Assembly: GCF_014132355.1 (NCBI RefSeq)
Contig: NZ_BLZO01000025.1
Coordinates: 62,001 to 126,000, forward strand
DNA length: 64,000 nucleotides
DNA from: Okeania sp. KiyG1
GTDB lineage: Bacteria > Cyanobacteriota > Cyanobacteriia > Cyanobacteriales > Microcoleaceae
Direction of reading: 5' to 3'
The notes below the pieces were generated by a model. It searched no databases, was not told the origin of the DNA, and saw nothing but the letters and a program-made list of their open reading frames with translations. The position numbers were made by a program, and so were the translations under genes. The number at the start of each line of letters is the position of its first letter. Position 1 is the first letter of the stretch. Of this stretch, positions 18,263-59,233 are shown piece after piece.

Positions 18263-18358
18263 AATATATCCAGAAAAGAGGGAGTAGGGATTAGCGGGAA
18301 AGAATTGATAATTTCTGTGCGATAGTTAATTTTATTTTTGATTATCGGAGATGTCTAA
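18263..18358. repeat. Family-5 miniature element (GGAGATGTCTAA end)
   Basis: It contains CCAGAAAAGAGGGA at the left and TTTTTGATTATCGGAGATGTCTAATA at the right, split here for length. The same pair bounds 45931-46073 and, in reverse, 42664-42761. Confidence 0.55.
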
Positions 18359-18444
18359 TAAATATCTGATATTTCTGCCAATTCTAGTGGTGAGCATTTC
18401 CTGCGGACTGCTGCGCAAACAGCTATTAGCGGTCAGCTAGAGCG

Positions 18445-18625
18445 CAACAATACTCTCTCATATAGGACAGTGTTTAAATCAATATAGACTTTAAGGGCAA
18501 GGGAAGCACTTTTGTAGTAAGACAATTAAATATTGCTTTTTCCTAAACTAAAAGCAATAGCTGAAGTCTGCAGTTCCTCCGGAGGAGGCTAGCTGAAGTC
18601 CGCAGTTCCGACCATAGGAGGCTGG
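18445..18625. repeat. Dispersed ~170-bp intergenic repeat, copy 1
   Basis: Blocks CTCTCTCATATAGGACAGT, TTTTGTAGTAAGACAATTAA and AAAGCAATAGCTGAAGTC recur in the same order at 58983-59135, and a more decayed reverse copy lies near 37436-37560. It has no coding potential. Confidence 0.65.
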
Positions 18626-18775
18626 CTGACTGCTGAATGCTTACTTCTAGTGTTCCCTCTTGAATTTACACCTAACACCTATCACCTACCACCTACAAGG
18701 CCATAATTCTCAAATTTTCTCAACTATGTACCGCTCAACTAAACTTACTCAAACTGAACGAGAAGGTCTGAAAGT

Positions 18776-20019
18776 CTAGTCAAACGCAAGTGGATCGACC
18801 ACTACAGGGTTAAACGGCAAACCCTTTATTCCTTGGTCAAAGACATCAGGAATTACTTTTTTAATAATGTTCAACGACCCATTGACATCTGCATTTAATA
18901 ATTTATTTTCTCTGGTTTTATACAACCCTCTTGTTACTCTTTTTCCACTAAATTTCGGTTTTTGTTCTCCATATTTCGGTAAATCATCCCCATCTAAACA
19001 GCTCGATTGAGATGTATAGGATTCTTCGGTAATTATTACTTTTATTCCTCTTAGTTGGGCTTTATACCTTAACATCTCTATTAACCTATAGTGAGGGATA
19101 TTCACAAATTGTTGATTGTTCTTTTTCCCTAATTTTATCTCTTGTTTCCAAGTCTGATTCTGCCCAATAATTAAGGTTCCTATTTCATGCTTGATACACC
19201 AATTTATTACCCTTTTACTTGCTGTATGGAGATAGTTTTCTACTCGACAATTTCGTTTCGGCTAAGAGCCGACATGAATGTGAGTTAATTTTTTTAACCG
19301 ATGAGAATTACTTTGATTGTGGTTGGTTTTTAGTTGGGATTGTAAATAAGAGCGTTGTTTATTATAAAAGGTGTTAATTGCTTTTAATGGTCTGCCTTTA
19401 ATCAACAGAGGTGTAGTTCCTGTTTGATTTGTCGTTACAGCTATTAAGTTATTTACTCCTAAATCTACTCCTGCTATTTGTTGATTTTCTGTTGTTGACT
19501 CCGATTTTTCATAGACTATTTCTATTATGTAACAGCTACTTTTGGGGATAATTCTGGTTTCTATTATTTCTGTCTGTGAAGTGTGGATTTTTATTTCACT
19601 CATTGACAGATGACAAATTCCTTTTTTTCAGGTTTTTTTGTATATTGATTCATCAGGATAGGGCAGAATATTTCGGCATGCATTTTTTATGTTTATATTT
19701 GGGGATTTTTGGTTTCCCTAAAAATTTATTTGACTGTTTTTGCAACTCTCTTAAAGCCGCAAAATAACTACTCCAAGCTGAGTCTAATATCAATGATTAT
19801 TTGCTCACTTACTTTGGTAGGTAAAGCTTGATAATCTTCACTTTTAGATACCTGGTGATACAGTTGATTAAAGCTTAGTTTCTTTTTGTTTTCAAAGAAG
19901 TATTGACGATAATAATAGTTAGCTAAATTGAATAAATTTTTCGACAAAAAAGCCTTGTGGTCTATTTCTGACCACAAATAATGTGATTTGGTAATAACAT
20001 GACGTTCAACTAGCTTCAT
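18776..20019 (-). pseudogene. Broken tnpB (IS200/IS605 family)
   Basis: Three frame fragments on the minus strand make one TnpB: 20019-19768 (MKLVERHVITKSHYLW, N-terminus), 19603-19262 (IAGVDLGVNNLIAVTTNQ, the first RuvC aspartate) and 19105-18776 (VIITEESYTSQSSCLDGDDLP and LLNADVNGSLNIIKK, the second and third RuvC motifs). At least two frame breaks and lost starts separate them. The zinc-ribbon cysteines are replaced (SQSSCLDGDD), as in the intact TnpB at 31290. No clear right-end hairpin with a TCAA end was found downstream. Confidence 0.8.
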
Positions 20020-20419
20020 ATCCTAATTGTAGCTGATAACGACTCAATGAATAGACAACTGAGCAAAATTACTCATTTTAGTTTGATAGCTATAATTATG
20101 AGTAAGTTTGATGAACTTTAGATAAGTTTTTGCTTTCTGTATTTACCCCCATATTCCGCACTTCAATTTGTAACATAAAAATCAGTATAAAATCCGTAGC
20201 TTGCTTAAGTATTTATACTATATAAATTATCTTCATTTACCTCAATCGAGAGTCAAATTCTCAGATTACTTATGCCAGCATAAACACTTACTGAATCCTT
20301 GACTCCTATTGACCACTATAATTTACTTCTTACTTCTTACTTTTGAATGCATGACTTTTGACTTATTTTTTTATACTACATTTTGTGCTGCGGAATGTGG
20401 GATGTACGGTTTCCACGAA
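20020..20419. other. AT-rich groEL upstream region
   Basis: About 400 bp lie between the tnpB remnant and CIRCE, with GACTTTTGACTT-type repeats near 20325-20365. No groES or other gene is present. Confidence 0.5.
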
Positions 20420-20446
20420 CTAGCACTCTACCTCGCCGAGTGCTAA
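20420..20446 (+). promoter_or_regulatory. CIRCE operator (HrcA site)
   Basis: TAGCACTC - nine bases - GAGTGCTAA is the CIRCE inverted repeat with the correct spacer length. It ends 31 bp before the groEL start, so HrcA should repress this gene until heat or other stress. Confidence 0.92.
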
Positions 20447-20477
20447 ATTTTTATTTGGAAGCAATAGGAGAAAGTAT

Positions 20478-22160
<1,683 letters not shown>

Positions 22161-22256
22161 TATTGCCTGTCTATTTAGTACTAGAAGGCAGAAAACTTTA
22201 TGGTTTATGGTATCTGCTTCGCCACCCTGTACTAAAGTCTTATATTAATTTGCCTA

Positions 22257-22310
22257 AAACGGGATGGATGAATTGAGATGATGTTCACCTTTCCCGTTTC
22301 CTTTTTTATA
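22257..22310 (+). terminator. Possible groEL terminator
   Basis: AAACGGGA ... TCCCGTTT forms an 8-bp stem with a 27-nt loop, followed by CCTTTTTTATA, about 100 bp after the groEL stop. The long loop makes this a modest call. Confidence 0.4.
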
Positions 22311-22397
22311 TCTCTTGCAAAAGTCTTTCTTAAAACTTCAAACTTCTGACTTCTGACTTCAATAATAAGCAATTTTCCTTTCTGCCTTGTGCCTTTT

Positions 22398-23036
22398 TCA
22401 ATCAATTCCTTCTAGCGCAATTTGAGTTAAGCGTTTGAGAATGCGGAGTACATCATAAAGTTCATTACCAGGATTAATAGTAATAAACATTTTTGAAAGA
22501 GCATATTGTGGTGGTTCTCCATTAACTAATTTAACAAATATAAAACCGCCACCTGTAGAAATCATCCCATAATTAGGGCGACTTGGATGAGGATTTGCTA
22601 ACATATAAGCCAGAATTTGACCCCGTCCAGCTTCAGTAGAAAATTCAGCTTTTTTAGACTCAATTACCATTGCCCAGAATTGGTCTTTTAACACCAAAGT
22701 ATCAATCTTACCTTTAATAATAATATCTTCATCTTCGACTGCTAAATTAATCGCAGGTTCGGAACGAATATACAATGGATAAAGAAAAAATCCCCCAATA
22801 AATAAAATTGGGTCAACTACTGCCATCCTCACAACATTTTCTAGCACTGGCGGATAATCTGTTAGGTTAATAAATCCAGCTTTTACTTTATCTAGGAGTT
22901 GTTTTTCTAAGTCAGTAAGTTCTGGTAAATTATCTTGCCATTCCCGGAAAAATTCCTCGTCTTGGTTTTTTTGAAGTCCGAAGTTATCAATAAGATAGCG
23001 GATGTTGACGTCTTTTGCTGGAAGAGTTTGAGTCAT
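22398..23036 (-). CDS. PD-(D/E)XK nuclease-like protein (HsdR N-terminal type)
   Basis: This 212-residue protein belongs to a cyanobacterial group often labelled restriction endonuclease subunit R. The core KGKIDTLV (D112), VIESKK (E126, K128) and RGQILAYML (Q140) fits the PD-(D/E)XK fold with a Q motif, as in HsdR N-terminal domains. No helicase, methylase or specificity subunit is adjacent, so it is not a type I restriction system by itself. It lies beside an antitoxin gene and 0.6 kb from a STAND NTPase. A role in defence or in IS-related DNA processing is inference. Confidence 0.7.
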   Translation of the reverse strand: MTQTLPAKDVNIRYLIDNFGLQKNQDEEFFREWQDNLPELTDLEKQLLDKVKAGFINLTDYPPVLENVVRMAVVDPILFIGGFFLYPLYIRSEPAINLAVEDEDIIIKGKIDTLVLKDQFWAMVIESKKAEFSTEAGRGQILAYMLANPHPSRPNYGMISTGGGFIFVKLVNGEPPQYALSKMFITINPGNELYDVLRILKRLTQIALEGID

Positions 23037-54122: not shown

Positions 54123-54698
54123 ATGCTGGCAACTGAGCAAAAATATTACTCTACCGAAGAGTATTTAGAACTGGAAGAAGCAGCAGAATTTAGAAGTGAA
54201 TATCGTCAGGGGGAAATAATTCAAATGGTTGGATGTACACCAAATCACAATTTAATTTATGGTAACTTTTATGCTGCACTGAAGTATGCACTAAAAGGTA
54301 AACCATATTGAGTATTTATGACTGATTTACGTTTATGGATACCTGAATCTAGACTTTATACTTATCCAGATGTAATGGTTGTTGCTATTCCTTTAGTCTA
54401 TGCTGAAAATAGACGGGACACTATTACTAATCCTCTAATAATTGCAGAAGTATTATCAAATTCTACAGAAAGCTATTACCGAGGAAAAAAAATTGAGTAT
54501 TACCGAAGTATGAGTAGTTTTCAAGAATATATTTTGATTGACCAATATAGGAATCATGTAGAACAATTTAGCAAGACTGAAGAGGGGAAATGGTTATTAT
54601 CAGAATTTAGTAATTTAGAAGATAATTTGTATTTAAGTTCTGTTGAATCTGGAATATCTTTACAGGATATTTACGAAGAAGTTGAATTTGAGGAGTAG
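54123..54698 (+). pseudogene. Uma2-family gene interrupted by an in-frame TGA
   Basis: The frame reads MLATEQKYYSTEEYLELEEAAE ... LKGKPY, then TGA (54309-54311), then continues without a shift as VFMTDLRLWIPESRLYTYPDVMVV ... IIAEVLSNST ... GKKIEYYR, ending EEVEFEE (191 codons). The PD-(D/E)XK-like residues (YPDVMV, AEVLSNST, YYRGKK) survive. The family has a charged residue at the stop position, so a single substitution such as CGA to TGA explains it. AAGGAG precedes the ATG. It is the head of a Uma2-derived block that continues to 58807. Confidence 0.85.
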
Positions 54699-54834
54699 GA
54701 AGTAGGAACAGTAGTGAGTAGGGAGTAGGGAGTAGGGAATAGAAAATTAATTATTTTGGGAAAAATTTAGAAAATCTCTATAGCAATTCCCATCTCTGAG
54801 TGACGCATAAAATTCATTAATTTGAGAAACGCTA

Positions 54835-55180
54835 TAGTTTTACCAGAATTAAAAATTTCTCTACTAAATCAAGCATTGGAACTTAGTCGAAACATGAATT
54901 AACGGTTAGATAGCACTTGGTTAATGGAACAATTTCAAACATATACAGGACTTACGCATTTTTCCGGCAAAAACACCATATATACCATAGTGCTATAGTT
55001 TTTATCTACTATATGTAGTGCTTAGTCGAAACATGAATTAACGGTTAGATAGCACTTGGTTAATAGAACAATTTCAAACATATACAGGAATTACGCATTT
55101 TTCCGACAAAAACACTATATATACCATAGTGCTATAGTTTTTATCTACTATATGTAGTGCCTTTGCGTAAGTCCTGATAT
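54835..55180. repeat. Uma2 3' remnants duplicated with family-1 elements
   Basis: TTACCAGAATTAAAAATTTC and CTTAGTCGAAACATGAATTAACGG are the end of a Uma2 gene related to the array downstream. This end and the attached family-1 element (54957 and 55086 copies, ACAGGACTTACGCA) are repeated in tandem with a ~130-bp period. The first element copy is truncated by the second Uma2 remnant. Confidence 0.65.
55086..55175. mobile_element. Family-1 miniature element next to Uma2 remnants
   Basis: The left end AGGAATTACGCA is slightly changed, the right end TGCGTAAGTCCT intact. The interior CCATAGTGCTATAG is a third interior type for the family. Confidence 0.65.
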
Positions 55181-55437
55181 AGCGTTTTTCAGACTAATGA
55201 GGTACACCTATTTTTATTTCTATTCTATTCTTTTCCCTTTTCCCTAAAACCAACGAATTTTGTACCTCACCACTGTGGGAATTGCTATTGAGAATTGCTA
55301 TAAAAATAACTCAGCTTGCCAATAAATTTGTTGAAAAAGTAGATAAATAATGAGTAACTTACAAACCAAAATTTTAGCTGATACTTAGATAACTGCAACT
55401 TGGTCAGAATATTTACAAGTGCTAGAAAGTATAGATA

Positions 55438-55752
55438 ATGAATATTATTGACTTAGAAAAATATCCAGCACCAGACTTAGTAATAGAAGTTGCTAATAGT
55501 TCGCTTTCTGATGCTCAAGGAGAAAAACTTATTTTATATGAAAATATCGGAGTGGGAGAATATTGGATAATTGATGTACAAAATGTGCAAGTAATTGCAT
55601 TTGCTGTAGCAGATAGAGGTAGTAAACAAATTCAAGAATCTCTTGTTTTACCAGAATTAAAAATTTCCCTACTTGATGAAGCACTTCAACTTAGTAGGAA
55701 TATGAATCAACGGTTAGTTGGAGCTTGGTTAATGGAAAAATTTCAGCAATAA
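55438..55752 (+). pseudogene. Uma2 C-terminal fragment, array copy 1
   Basis: The 104-codon frame holds APDLVIEVANSS, GEKLILYENIGV and EYWIIDVQN, the second half of a Uma2 domain. The first catalytic PDxxV segment of the family is missing because an internal deletion fused the N-terminal start to this half out of frame. The start codon arises from TAATGAATATT. Protein production is unproven. It differs from copy 2 at codon 44 (Ile against Val). Confidence 0.7.
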
Positions 55753-55845
55753 AAATAACTCAGCTTGCCAATAAATTTGTTGAAAAAGTAGATAAATAAT
55801 GAGTAACTTACAAACCAAAATTTTAACTGATACAAAGTATAGATA

Positions 55846-56160
55846 ATGAATATTATTGACTTAGAAAAATATCCAGCACCAGACTTAGTAATAGAAGTTG
55901 CTAATAGTTCGCTTTCTGATGCTCAAGGAGAAAAACGTATTTTATATGAAAATATCGGAGTGGGAGAATATTGGATAGTTGATGTACAAAATGTGCAAGT
56001 AATTGCATTTGCTGTAGCAGATAGAGGTAGTAAACAAATTCAAGAATCTCTTGTTTTACCAGAATTAAAAATTTCCCTACTTGATGAAGCACTTCAACTT
56101 AGTAGGAATATGAATCAACGGTTAGTTGGAGCTTGGTTAATGGAAAAATTTCAGCAATAA
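55846..56160 (+). pseudogene. Uma2 C-terminal fragment, array copy 2
   Basis: It has the same 104-codon frame, with GEKRILYE (Arg instead of Leu). Its 5' part lacks the ITATWSEYLQVL segment because of a ~42-bp deletion (CTGATACAAAGTATAG junction). Confidence 0.7.
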
Positions 56161-56295
56161 AAATAACTCAGCTTGCCAATAAATTTGTTGAAAGAAGTAG
56201 ATAAATAATGAGTAACTTACAAACCAAAATTTTAGCTGATACTTAGATAACTGCAACTTGGTCAGAATATTTACAAGTGCTAGAAAGTATAGATA

Positions 56296-56610
56296 ATGAA
56301 TATTATTGACTTAGAAAAATATCCAGCACCAGACTTAGTAATAGAAGTTGCTAATAGTTCGCTTTCTGATGCTCAAGGAGAAAAACTTATTTTATATGAA
56401 AATATCGGAGTGGGAGAATATTGGATTGTTGATGTACAAAATGTGCAAGTAATTGCATTTGCTGTAGCAGATAGAGGTAGTAAACAAATTCAAGAATCTC
56501 TTGTTTTACCAGAATTAAAAATTTCCCTACTTGATGAAGCACTTCAACTTAGTAGGAATATGAATCAACGGTTAGTTGGAGCTTGGTTAATGGAAAAATT
56601 TCAACAATAA
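56296..56610 (+). pseudogene. Uma2 C-terminal fragment, array copy 3
   Basis: GVGEYWIVD type, with the full 5' leader. It is the first half of the first 907-bp dimer. Confidence 0.7.
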
Positions 56611-56678
56611 AAATAACTCAGCTACTTAGATAACTGCAACTTGGTCAGAATATTTACAAGTGCTAGAAAGTATAGATA

Positions 56679-56993
56679 ATGAATATTATTGACTTAGAAA
56701 AATATCCAGCACCAGACTTAGTAATAGAAGTTGCTAATAGTTCGCTTTCTGATGCTCAAGGAGAAAAACTTATTTTATATGAAAATATCGGAGTGGTAGA
56801 ATATTGGATAGTTGATGTACAAAATGTGCAAGTAATTGCATTTGCTGTAGCAGATAGAGGTAGTAAACAAATTCAAGAATCTCTTGTTTTACCAGAATTA
56901 AAAATTTCCCTACTTGATGAAGCACTTCAACTTAGTAGGAATATGAATCAACGGTTAGTTGGAGCTTGGTTAATGGAAAAATTTCAACAATAA
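56679..56993 (+). pseudogene. Uma2 C-terminal fragment, array copy 4
   Basis: GVVEYWIVD type. The leader is shortened: CTCAGCT joins straight to ACTTAGATAACTG, removing the ATGAGTAAC start. It is followed by an extra 66-bp partial copy of the 3' end (TTAGTAGGAATATGAATC...). Confidence 0.7.
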
Positions 56994-57202
56994 AAATAAC
57001 TCAGCTTAGTAGGAATATGAATCAACGGTTAGTTGGAGCTTGGTTAATGGAAAAATTTCAGCAATAAAAATAACTCAGCTTGCCAATAAATTTGTTGAAA
57101 GAAGTAGATAAATAATGAGTAACTTACAAACCAAAATTTTAGCTGATACTTAGATAACTGCAACTTGGTCAGAATATTTACAAGTGCTAGAAAGTATAGA
57201 TA

Positions 57203-57517
57203 ATGAATATTATTGACTTAGAAAAATATCCAGCACCAGACTTAGTAATAGAAGTTGCTAATAGTTCGCTTTCTGATGCTCAAGGAGAAAAACTTATTTT
57301 ATATGAAAATATCGGAGTGGGAGAATATTGGATTGTTGATGTACAAAATGTGCAAGTAATTGCATTTGCTGTAGCAGATAGAGGTAGTAAACAAATTCAA
57401 GAATCTCTTGTTTTACCAGAATTAAAAATTTCCCTACTTGATGAAGCACTTCAACTTAGTAGGAATATGAATCAACGGTTAGTTGGAGCTTGGTTAATGG
57501 AAAAATTTCAACAATAA
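57203..57517 (+). pseudogene. Uma2 C-terminal fragment, array copy 5
   Basis: GVGEYW type. It lies exactly 907 bp after copy 3, with the full leader. Confidence 0.7.
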
Positions 57518-57585
57518 AAATAACTCAGCTACTTAGATAACTGCAACTTGGTCAGAATATTTACAAGTGCTAGAAAGTATAGATA

Positions 57586-57900
57586 ATGAATATTATTGAC
57601 TTAGAAAAATATCCAGCACCAGACTTAGTAATAGAAGTTGCTAATAGTTCGCTTTCTGATGCTCAAGGAGAAAAACTTATTTTATATGAAAATATCGGAG
57701 TGGTAGAATATTGGATAGTTGATGTACAAAATGTGCAAGTAATTGCATTTGCTGTAGCAGATAGAGGTAGTAAACAAATTCAAGAATCTCTTGTTTTACC
57801 AGAATTAAAAATTTCCCTACTTGATGAAGCACTTCAACTTAGTAGGAATATGAATCAACGGTTAGTTGGAGCTTGGTTAATGGAAAAATTTCAACAATAA
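57586..57900 (+). pseudogene. Uma2 C-terminal fragment, array copy 6
   Basis: GVVEYW type, exactly 907 bp after copy 4, with the same shortened leader and trailing partial 3' copy. Confidence 0.7.
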
Positions 57901-58109
57901 AAATAACTCAGCTTAGTAGGAATATGAATCAACGGTTAGTTGGAGCTTGGTTAATGGAAAAATTTCAACAATAAAAATAACTCAGCTTGCCAATAAATTT
58001 GTTGAAAGAAGTAGATAAATAATGAGTAACTTACAAACCAAAATTTTAGCTGATACTTAGATAACTGCAACTTGGTCAGAATATTTACAAGTGCTAGAAA
58101 GTATAGATA

Positions 58110-58424
58110 ATGAATATTATTGACTTAGAAAAATATCCAGCACCAGACTTAGTAATAGAAGTTGCTAATAGTTCGCTTTCTGATGCTCAAGGAGAAAAAC
58201 TTATTTTATATGAAAATATCGGAGTGGGAGAATATTGGATTGTTGATGTACAAAATGTGCAAGTAATTGCATTTGCTGTAGCAGATAGAGGTAGTAAACA
58301 AATTCAAGAATCTCTTGTTTTACCAGAATTAAAAATTTCCCTACTTGATGAAGCACTTCAACTTAGTAGGAATATGAATCAACGGTTAGTTGGAGCTTGG
58401 TTAATGGAAAAATTTCAACAATAA
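58110..58424 (+). pseudogene. Uma2 C-terminal fragment, array copy 7
   Basis: GVGEYW type, 907 bp after copy 5. Confidence 0.7.
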
Positions 58425-58492
58425 AAATAACTCAGCTACTTAGATAACTGCAACTTGGTCAGAATATTTACAAGTGCTAGAAAGTATAGATA

Positions 58493-58807
58493 ATGAATAT
58501 TATTGACTTAGAAAAATATCCAGCACCAGACTTAGTAATAGAAGTTGCTAATAGTTCGCTTTCTGATGCTCAAGGAGAAAAACTTATTTTATATGAAAAT
58601 ATCGGAGTGGTAGAATATTGGATAGTTGATGTACAAAATGTGAAAATTATTGCATTGTCCGTGGTGGATGGAGGTAGTAAACAAATTAGAGAATCTCTTG
58701 TTTTACCAGGATTAAAAATTGCTCTACTTGACGAAGCGCTTCAACATAGTCGAAATATGAATCAACGCTTAGTTGGAAGTTGGTTAATGGAAAAATTTCA
58801 GCAATAA
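58493..58807 (+). pseudogene. Uma2 C-terminal fragment, array copy 8 (terminal, diverged)
   Basis: The first 50 codons match the other copies, but from VQNVKIIALSVVDGGSKQIRESLVLPGLKIALL on (residues 48-80) it differs at many positions. As the outermost copy it was apparently only partly replaced during amplification and keeps older sequence at its 3' end. Confidence 0.7.
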
Positions 58808-59233
58808 AAATAACTCAGCTTAAAAATAAATCATCTTGGCTGAGTCAGATATTTATTAATATATTTATCACAAAAAAATTATCTTTTCTGTAGCTGGTTT
58901 AATACACCACCATCTTAGAAATTGTTTGAGGTTTGTAGACACTAAGTGGGTAAGCATTCAGCTAGCTCGCTGTCAGCTATCAGCAACAAGACTCTCTCAT
59001 ATAGGACAGTATTGAAATTAACAACTGACTTTAAGGGTAAGGGAGGCAACTTTTGTAGTAAGACAATTAAATATTGCTTTGATCCTAAACTAAAAGCAAT
59101 AGCTGAAGTCCGCAGTTACGACCATAGGAGGCTAGCTGATGGCTGACGGCTGAATGCTTACCTAAGTGGTGTGTACAAAACTATCCATAAGCAATTTTCC
59201 CTTCTGCCTTCTGCCTTCTGCCTTCTGACTTCT
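58808..59233. other. Spacer with dispersed repeat copy 2
   Basis: It contains the 58983-59135 repeat (see 18445-18625), TTAGCTAGC-type motifs and CTTCTGC tandem repeats (59200-59230). A 66-codon frame at 58946 is repeat sequence. Confidence 0.55.
58983..59135. repeat. Dispersed ~150-bp intergenic repeat, copy 2
   Basis: CTCTCTCATATAGGACAGT, TTTTGTAGTAAGACAATTAA and AAAGCAATAGCTGAAGTC follow the order of 18445-18625, 40 kb away. Confidence 0.65.

Follow-up and report, generated by a model that had tools for sequence, protein, structure and literature searches.

Why should one stretch of DNA from a marine filamentous cyanobacterium carry, in tandem, eight open frames that each encode only the C-terminal part of a Uma2 protein, a putative nuclease? 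The question is raised by a window of 64,000 nt from Okeania sp. KiyG1 (NZ_BLZO01000025.1, positions 62,001-126,000); all positions below are numbered over this whole stretch. The draft genome of the strain (G000) comprises 10.98 Mb in 198 contigs and is 92% complete. The initial annotation had reported eight 104-codon Uma2 C-terminal frames here, and they were recovered at starts 55438, 55846, 56296, 56679, 57203, 57586, 58110 and 58493; their spacings of 408, 450, 383, 524, 383, 524 and 383 bp agree exactly with those reported. As judged from sequence comparison, the array is very probably a decaying cassette of Uma2 paralogues amplified by ordinary repeats, rather than a working system.

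The register of the array was taken from a 17-bp direct repeat. Its eleven occurrences bound ten units of 449, 408, 450, 383, 74, 450, 383, 74, 450 and 383 bp, each of which begins with the repeat. The array was divided as follows.

55300..58820, + strand: whole array, with eleven 17-bp direct repeats ATAAAAATAACTCAGCT
55300, 55749, 56157, 56607, 56990, 57064, 57514, 57897, 57971, 58421 and 58804, + strand: starts of the 17-bp repeats
55300..55748, + strand: unit 1, 449 bp, with frame copy 1 (55438-55752)
55749..56156, + strand: unit 2, 408 bp, with a 41-bp deletion and frame copy 2 (55846-56160)
56157..57063, + strand: higher-order unit A, 907 bp (450 + 383 + 74), with frame copies 3 (56296-56610) and 4 (56679-56993)
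57064..57970, + strand: higher-order unit B, 907 bp, with frame copies 5 (57203-57517) and 6 (57586-57900)
57971..58803, + strand: higher-order unit C, partial (450 + 383), with frame copies 7 (58110-58424) and 8 (58493-58807; tail diverged from codon 51)

A dimer of 383 + 524 bp, itself duplicated, had been proposed as the higher-order unit. Duplication of a 907-bp block was borne out, but the dimer was rejected: because the 17-bp repeats set the register, the 524-bp spacing resolves into 450 bp and a separate truncated unit of 74 bp, and the block has three parts (450 + 383 + 74). Between units A and B a single position of the 907 differs; the third block is incomplete. At offset 907 the sequence matches itself exactly over runs of 963 and 674 bp, far beyond chance. 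The 383-bp unit is without the 67 bp immediately 3' of the 17-bp repeat, and the 74-bp unit is a 17-bp repeat fused to the 3' end of a unit; each of these secondary joints has one end at the 17-bp repeat. The 408-bp unit 2 bears its 41-bp deletion at a site unlike that of the 383-bp unit, plus a 1-bp difference common to unit 1. The mechanism first suggested, in which unequal exchange or slippage amplified the units in tandem and a higher-order unit was itself duplicated, is supported.

To what gene do the units go back? A search of related genomes for a single-copy intact orthologue, which had been suggested as a check, returned a 213-codon Uma2 gene in G009, beginning MSNLQTKIKTNTW (MSNLQTKI...), single at that place and adjoining the same SH3 and leuB neighbours. 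G009 belongs to the same family and another genus; its contig extends ~1 kb upstream of the gene, and the ABC-transporter side falls beyond the contig. Relative to this gene an array unit keeps the first ~31 codons, then shows a net loss of 239 bp, and picks up in a different frame at ~codon 112. All eight copies have an identical deletion joint, and the 104-codon frame starts at an ATG located at that joint. A nonsense codon is found at position 13 in 7/8 copies, copy 2 having lost that codon. On this alignment, each array unit is derived from a Uma2 gene of ~213 codons through a frame-shifting internal deletion, and the disabling lesions common to the copies mark the locus as a probable pseudogene array. 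Holding two or more Uma2 members head to tail, the locus also has the form of a Uma2 tandem paralogue cassette.

Against the Pfam Uma2 profile (PF05685), copy 1 scored 56.9 bits (cut-off 27) over positions 90-168 of 172, and all eight copies exceeded the Pfam cut-off in a genome-wide hidden Markov model (HMM) search. The QPD segment falls in the deleted stretch, as aligned for copies 1 and 8, and a full-length PD-(D/E)XK core with the PD aspartate is absent from the array copies. The E and the migrated K of the C-terminal half-motif (E126 and K139 in the family alignment) are kept in copies 1 and 8 and can be read in all eight translations. The accessible part of Feder and Bujnicki (PMC551604) gives D and E as practically invariant in the Uma2 family and D83 of all3650 as the PD aspartate; we infer that the lost QPD aspartate corresponds to this invariant D. 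A PDB sequence search with the intact relative gave one weak match, 9y1l.

The copies were then compared with each other over 315 nt. Copies 1-7 show 0-3 pairwise differences; copies 3, 5 and 7 are identical throughout, and so are copies 4 and 6. The five variable sites among these seven copies comprise three replacement and two silent changes, too few for a selection test. All frames are open, as had been noted, and the described 3' divergence of the last copy was located from codon 51 onward: copy 8 differs from copies 1-7 at 24-26 positions, all but 0-2 of them from that codon on. Two finer points of the initial annotation stood in part. Alternation of GVG and GVV holds for copies 3-8, but copies 1 and 2 are both GVG. 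An aborted 12-codon start precedes copies 1, 3, 5 and 7, but copies 4, 6 and 8 are without its ATG, and copy 2 has kept the ATG but lost codon 13 through the 41-bp deletion.

The corresponding locus was sought in other genomes by scoring a few candidates per genome; match counts are lower bounds and served for locating loci only. The order ABC transporter, Uma2, second Uma2, SH3 protein, 131-amino-acid (aa) protein and leuB is kept in G002, G003, G004 and G005. At the syntenic position all four, which are the other assessable Okeania genomes, have a broken second Uma2 gene (G001 was left out of the count, its contig stopping before the locus). The gene is single-copy in G003 and G005. In G004 a truncated gene is followed by three C-terminal fragments spaced 344 and 368 bp, and G022 holds degraded remains. 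At the locus in G002 there is a 704-bp array, in which two units differ at 1 of 704 positions and are accompanied by diverged or partial units; it also contains an exact 867-bp repeat. Because the joint sequences of the G002 array are unlike those in the window, we read it as having arisen independently. Since sister genomes hold different arrays at this place, the locus could serve to gauge rates of tandem duplication in large, repeat-rich cyanobacterial genomes.

These comparisons bear on whether the copy number is partly an artefact of assembly. Short reads cannot count exact repeats of 963 bp, and the exact runs in the array (963 and 674 bp at offset 907), like one of 1,133 bp in another Uma2 array on contig C58 (below), come from a 198-contig assembly of unstated read type; the 907-bp blocks may be miscounted. 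Assemblers, for their part, collapse repeats more often than they expand them. Six distinguishable unit types (449, 408, 450, 383 and 74 bp, and 383 bp with a diverged tail) could not have come from one or two units, and an array of other units stands at the same locus in G002, though with its exact 867-bp repeat too. An artefactual contribution is on balance unlikely.

What seeded the duplication? The 15-base core of the 17-bp repeat has 11 matches in the draft genome, every one inside the array, and a dispersed repeat was ruled out as the seed within this 92%-complete draft. An 18-bp version of the repeat flanks the single-copy gene in G003 (17/18 upstream, 18/18 downstream) and in G005 (16/18 upstream, 18/18 downstream). 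With the repeat on both flanks of single-copy genes, the seed for duplication was probably present before the array. The units might alternatively be a mobile or site-specifically recombining element that targets the 17-bp repeat, with which the single ending of both secondary joints (383 and 74 bp) at this repeat would agree. Confinement of the repeat core to the array, its imperfect form beside the single-copy gene in two relatives, and the absence of a recombinase among the six window proteins or pieces near the array that were compared with Pfam make such an element extremely improbable.

From the lesions, the repeat register and the relatives we infer an order of events, exchange of the RecA type, and an absence of function. 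The locus would first have held a ~213-codon Uma2 gene, and perhaps also an older tandem paralogue. In the lineage of the array the gene would have acquired the nonsense codon at position 13 and the frame-shifting internal deletion (239 bp net), whose joint by chance gave the C-terminal half an in-frame ATG, and with it the 104-codon open frame. Through the pre-existing 17-bp direct repeat on both flanks, the dead gene would have been duplicated by slippage or short-homology recombination, and further copies would have followed by homologous unequal exchange. The 383-bp and 74-bp units would have come from two later rearrangements, both of which ended on one side at the 17-bp repeat. The 450 + 383 + 74 block would have been amplified very recently, the last unit retaining a different tail, perhaps from the older paralogue.

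Could the fragment nevertheless be a product kept by selection? Replacement and silent changes between copy 1 and its relatives were tested with an assumed neutral replacement fraction of 0.785 and rounded counts. Against G003, 15.5 replacement and 5.5 silent changes fit neutrality (p = 0.79). Three observations weigh against a decaying array: 17 of 28 changes are replacements against G002 (p = 0.03) and 23 of 35 against G005 (p = 0.10), both below the neutral share, and the C-terminal segment that carries stops in 4/4 relatives is open in 8/8 array copies. We read the low replacement share as constraint that would have ended once the genes broke, and the open frames are best explained, from the near-identity of the copies, by recent copying of one open ancestor.

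These same observations would also suit a 104-residue fragment that is translated and selected, for instance as a dosage-dependent inhibitor or as the DNA-binding half of a Uma2 fold, paired with the many intact paralogues. Each frame begins with an ATG, E126 and K139 are kept, intact members of this subfamily are present in the genome, and two of the comparisons with relatives lean to constraint. Such a product has nonetheless lost the PD aspartate and the N-terminal half, and its gene is broken in all four assessable sister genomes. The best promoter-like match overlaps the ATG at 7/8 starts, promoter-like sites in the array region are fewer than in shuffled sequence (17 versus a mean of 23.7), and the promoter scan lends no support to expression of the fragments. 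With three replacement and two silent variants among copies 1-7 added, we consider a selected fragment very unlikely. A more specific proposal, in which the deletion, through a new start codon, gave rise to a half-nuclease of 104 residues (E and K kept) that binds or blocks intact Uma2 products, its recent amplification being favoured and its copy number tuned through recombination at the 17-bp repeat, is given slightly less credence still. A decaying, re-amplified cassette is the reading retained, and the locus warns that open frames within arrays need not imply function.

The tail of copy 8 was treated separately. Over 52 codons it has 0.36 silent substitutions per site relative to the tail of copy 1. 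Silent divergence between species is 0.08-0.11 in six pairwise comparisons of the first Uma2 gene, 0.15-0.16 in three of the ABC gene and 0.09-0.27 in ten of the SH3 gene; for copy 1 against four Okeania relatives it is 0.09-0.26 (at most 102 codons). The nearest relative of the copy 1 tail is in G003 (91.0%), and that of the copy 8 tail in G002 (89.2%). Because 0.36 exceeds the between-species values, the tail may belong to an older, second paralogue fused onto the array's end, and not to a copy that has decayed, which fits best over this short stretch; the SH3 values (0.09-0.27) weaken this reading. Gene conversion from elsewhere may, over so short a stretch, be the alternative.

Upstream of the array, a Uma2 gene with a TGA stop and further Uma2 debris had been reported, and both are present.

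54123..54698, + strand: first Uma2 gene (191 codons, interrupted by one in-frame TGA), a pseudogene in the genome of the array
54720..54938 (G000:C25:116720-116938), + strand: C-terminal debris of another Uma2 copy, with four stops inside (1 TGA, 2 TAG, 1 TAA)
54882..55160, + strand: 139-bp repeat in two copies, 97% alike, joining the Uma2 debris to an element with ends like terminal inverted repeats (TIR), CAGGACTTACGCA and TGCGTAAGTCCTG

G002, G003 and G004 have the first Uma2 gene intact (191 aa) at the syntenic position, and G005 has it shortened (137 aa). The element with TIR-like ends (CAGGACTTACGCA...TGCGTAAGTCCTG) repeats in tandem beside the Uma2 locus, as 139 bp twice in the window. 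In relatives it likewise repeats in tandem, at a 146-bp offset in G005 (L093 4751-5708) and G003, and at a 139-bp offset in G004; a 20-base pattern from the element has six matching places in the strain's own genome. An Rfam search of the window returned the L10 leader and tRNA only, both away from the array.

How does the array compare with known systems? In eukaryotic satellite higher-order repeats a block of several units is amplified and homogenised, with a diverged unit at the edge. The present array differs in having two full blocks and one partial, in being seeded by a gene and in having no known chromosomal role; the likeness is one of process only. Closer to hand are cassettes of the Uma2 / DUF820 / COG4636 family, likewise head-to-tail Uma2-family sequences in cyanobacteria. 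According to the accessible text of PMC2701414, cyanobacterial Uma2 genes mostly form cassettes of paralogous genes, and the portion available of Feder and Bujnicki (2005, PMC551604) records Uma2 tandem duplications, with one run of four genes in Crocosphaera watsonii, such duplications being rare in general. The array differs from these in its unit, a deleted pseudogene, in its greater number of copies and in its higher-order block, and intact cassettes also occur in the same genome. It is a larger, dead, higher-order version of the tandem Uma2 cassettes already described. Arrays of RPN nucleases in Thermosynechococcus TA-1 (11, 3 and 3 copies) are likewise large tandem nuclease-family arrays in a cyanobacterium; they belong to another family and are not described as pseudogenes in the accessible part of the source (PMC9403480). 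In the open-licence literature searched, as far as its text was available, no description of a Uma2 pseudogene array with higher-order repeats was found. The array thus offers a clean fossil record of a bacterial gene cassette decaying and re-amplifying, in which the flanking short repeat, the dead unit, the two secondary rearrangements and the recently amplified three-part block can all be read.

Is the pattern peculiar to this locus? The genome yielded 135 Uma2 HMM matches, merged to 129 units, of which 51 lie in 15 same-strand clusters (gaps up to 1 kb). From profile positions, the clusters on C85, C93, C94 and C109 are likely two pieces of one broken gene each, and one C38 cluster counted a split gene twice; after correction about 42 of 124 units remain in 11 clusters. 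A second higher-order Uma2 array is located at G000:C58 ~18330-22494 (L020 1831-5995), where seven copies 603-607 bp apart follow in the order broken, broken, intact, broken, intact, broken, intact. A 1207-bp block repeats there, with exact identity over 1,133 bp at offset 1,207; therefore even the genome itself holds another instance of the pattern seen in the window. The broken C58 copies measure 77 + 75 aa and the intact ones 179-194 aa, and the final intact copy has an end unlike those of the others. On G000:C57 (L013 2008-4100), three intact Uma2 genes of 212-223 aa and the same subfamily stand in tandem, an intact counterpart of the dead array.

Tandem repeats of any kind (period 60-2000 bp) were surveyed in a 400-kb sample of the genome, made up of 20 stretches (the opening 20 kb of each of 19 contigs that the Uma2 searches had already brought up, and one C58 stretch) and not random. 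The sample held 35 tandem loci, ~1 per 11 kb, by which the idea that the locus is unique in being repetitive was ruled out. Fifteen of the 35 are contained in a single open frame, unlike the other 20; none of the 35 overlaps Uma2, as flagged with five queries only, two of them slightly mis-sliced. At 3,526 bp the array exceeds the largest of them (2,867 bp); it is the longest of the 36 and stands at the top of the range, yet not off the scale. Among other tandem arrays, that on G000:C184 (L107 15938-18804) extends over ~2.9 kb in 282-bp units, 99% identical, outside any single open frame. Two further long arrays, L115 9447-11935 and L103 6717-8323, also lie outside open frames; the longest alignment has an offset of 183 bp in the first and 66 bp in the second.

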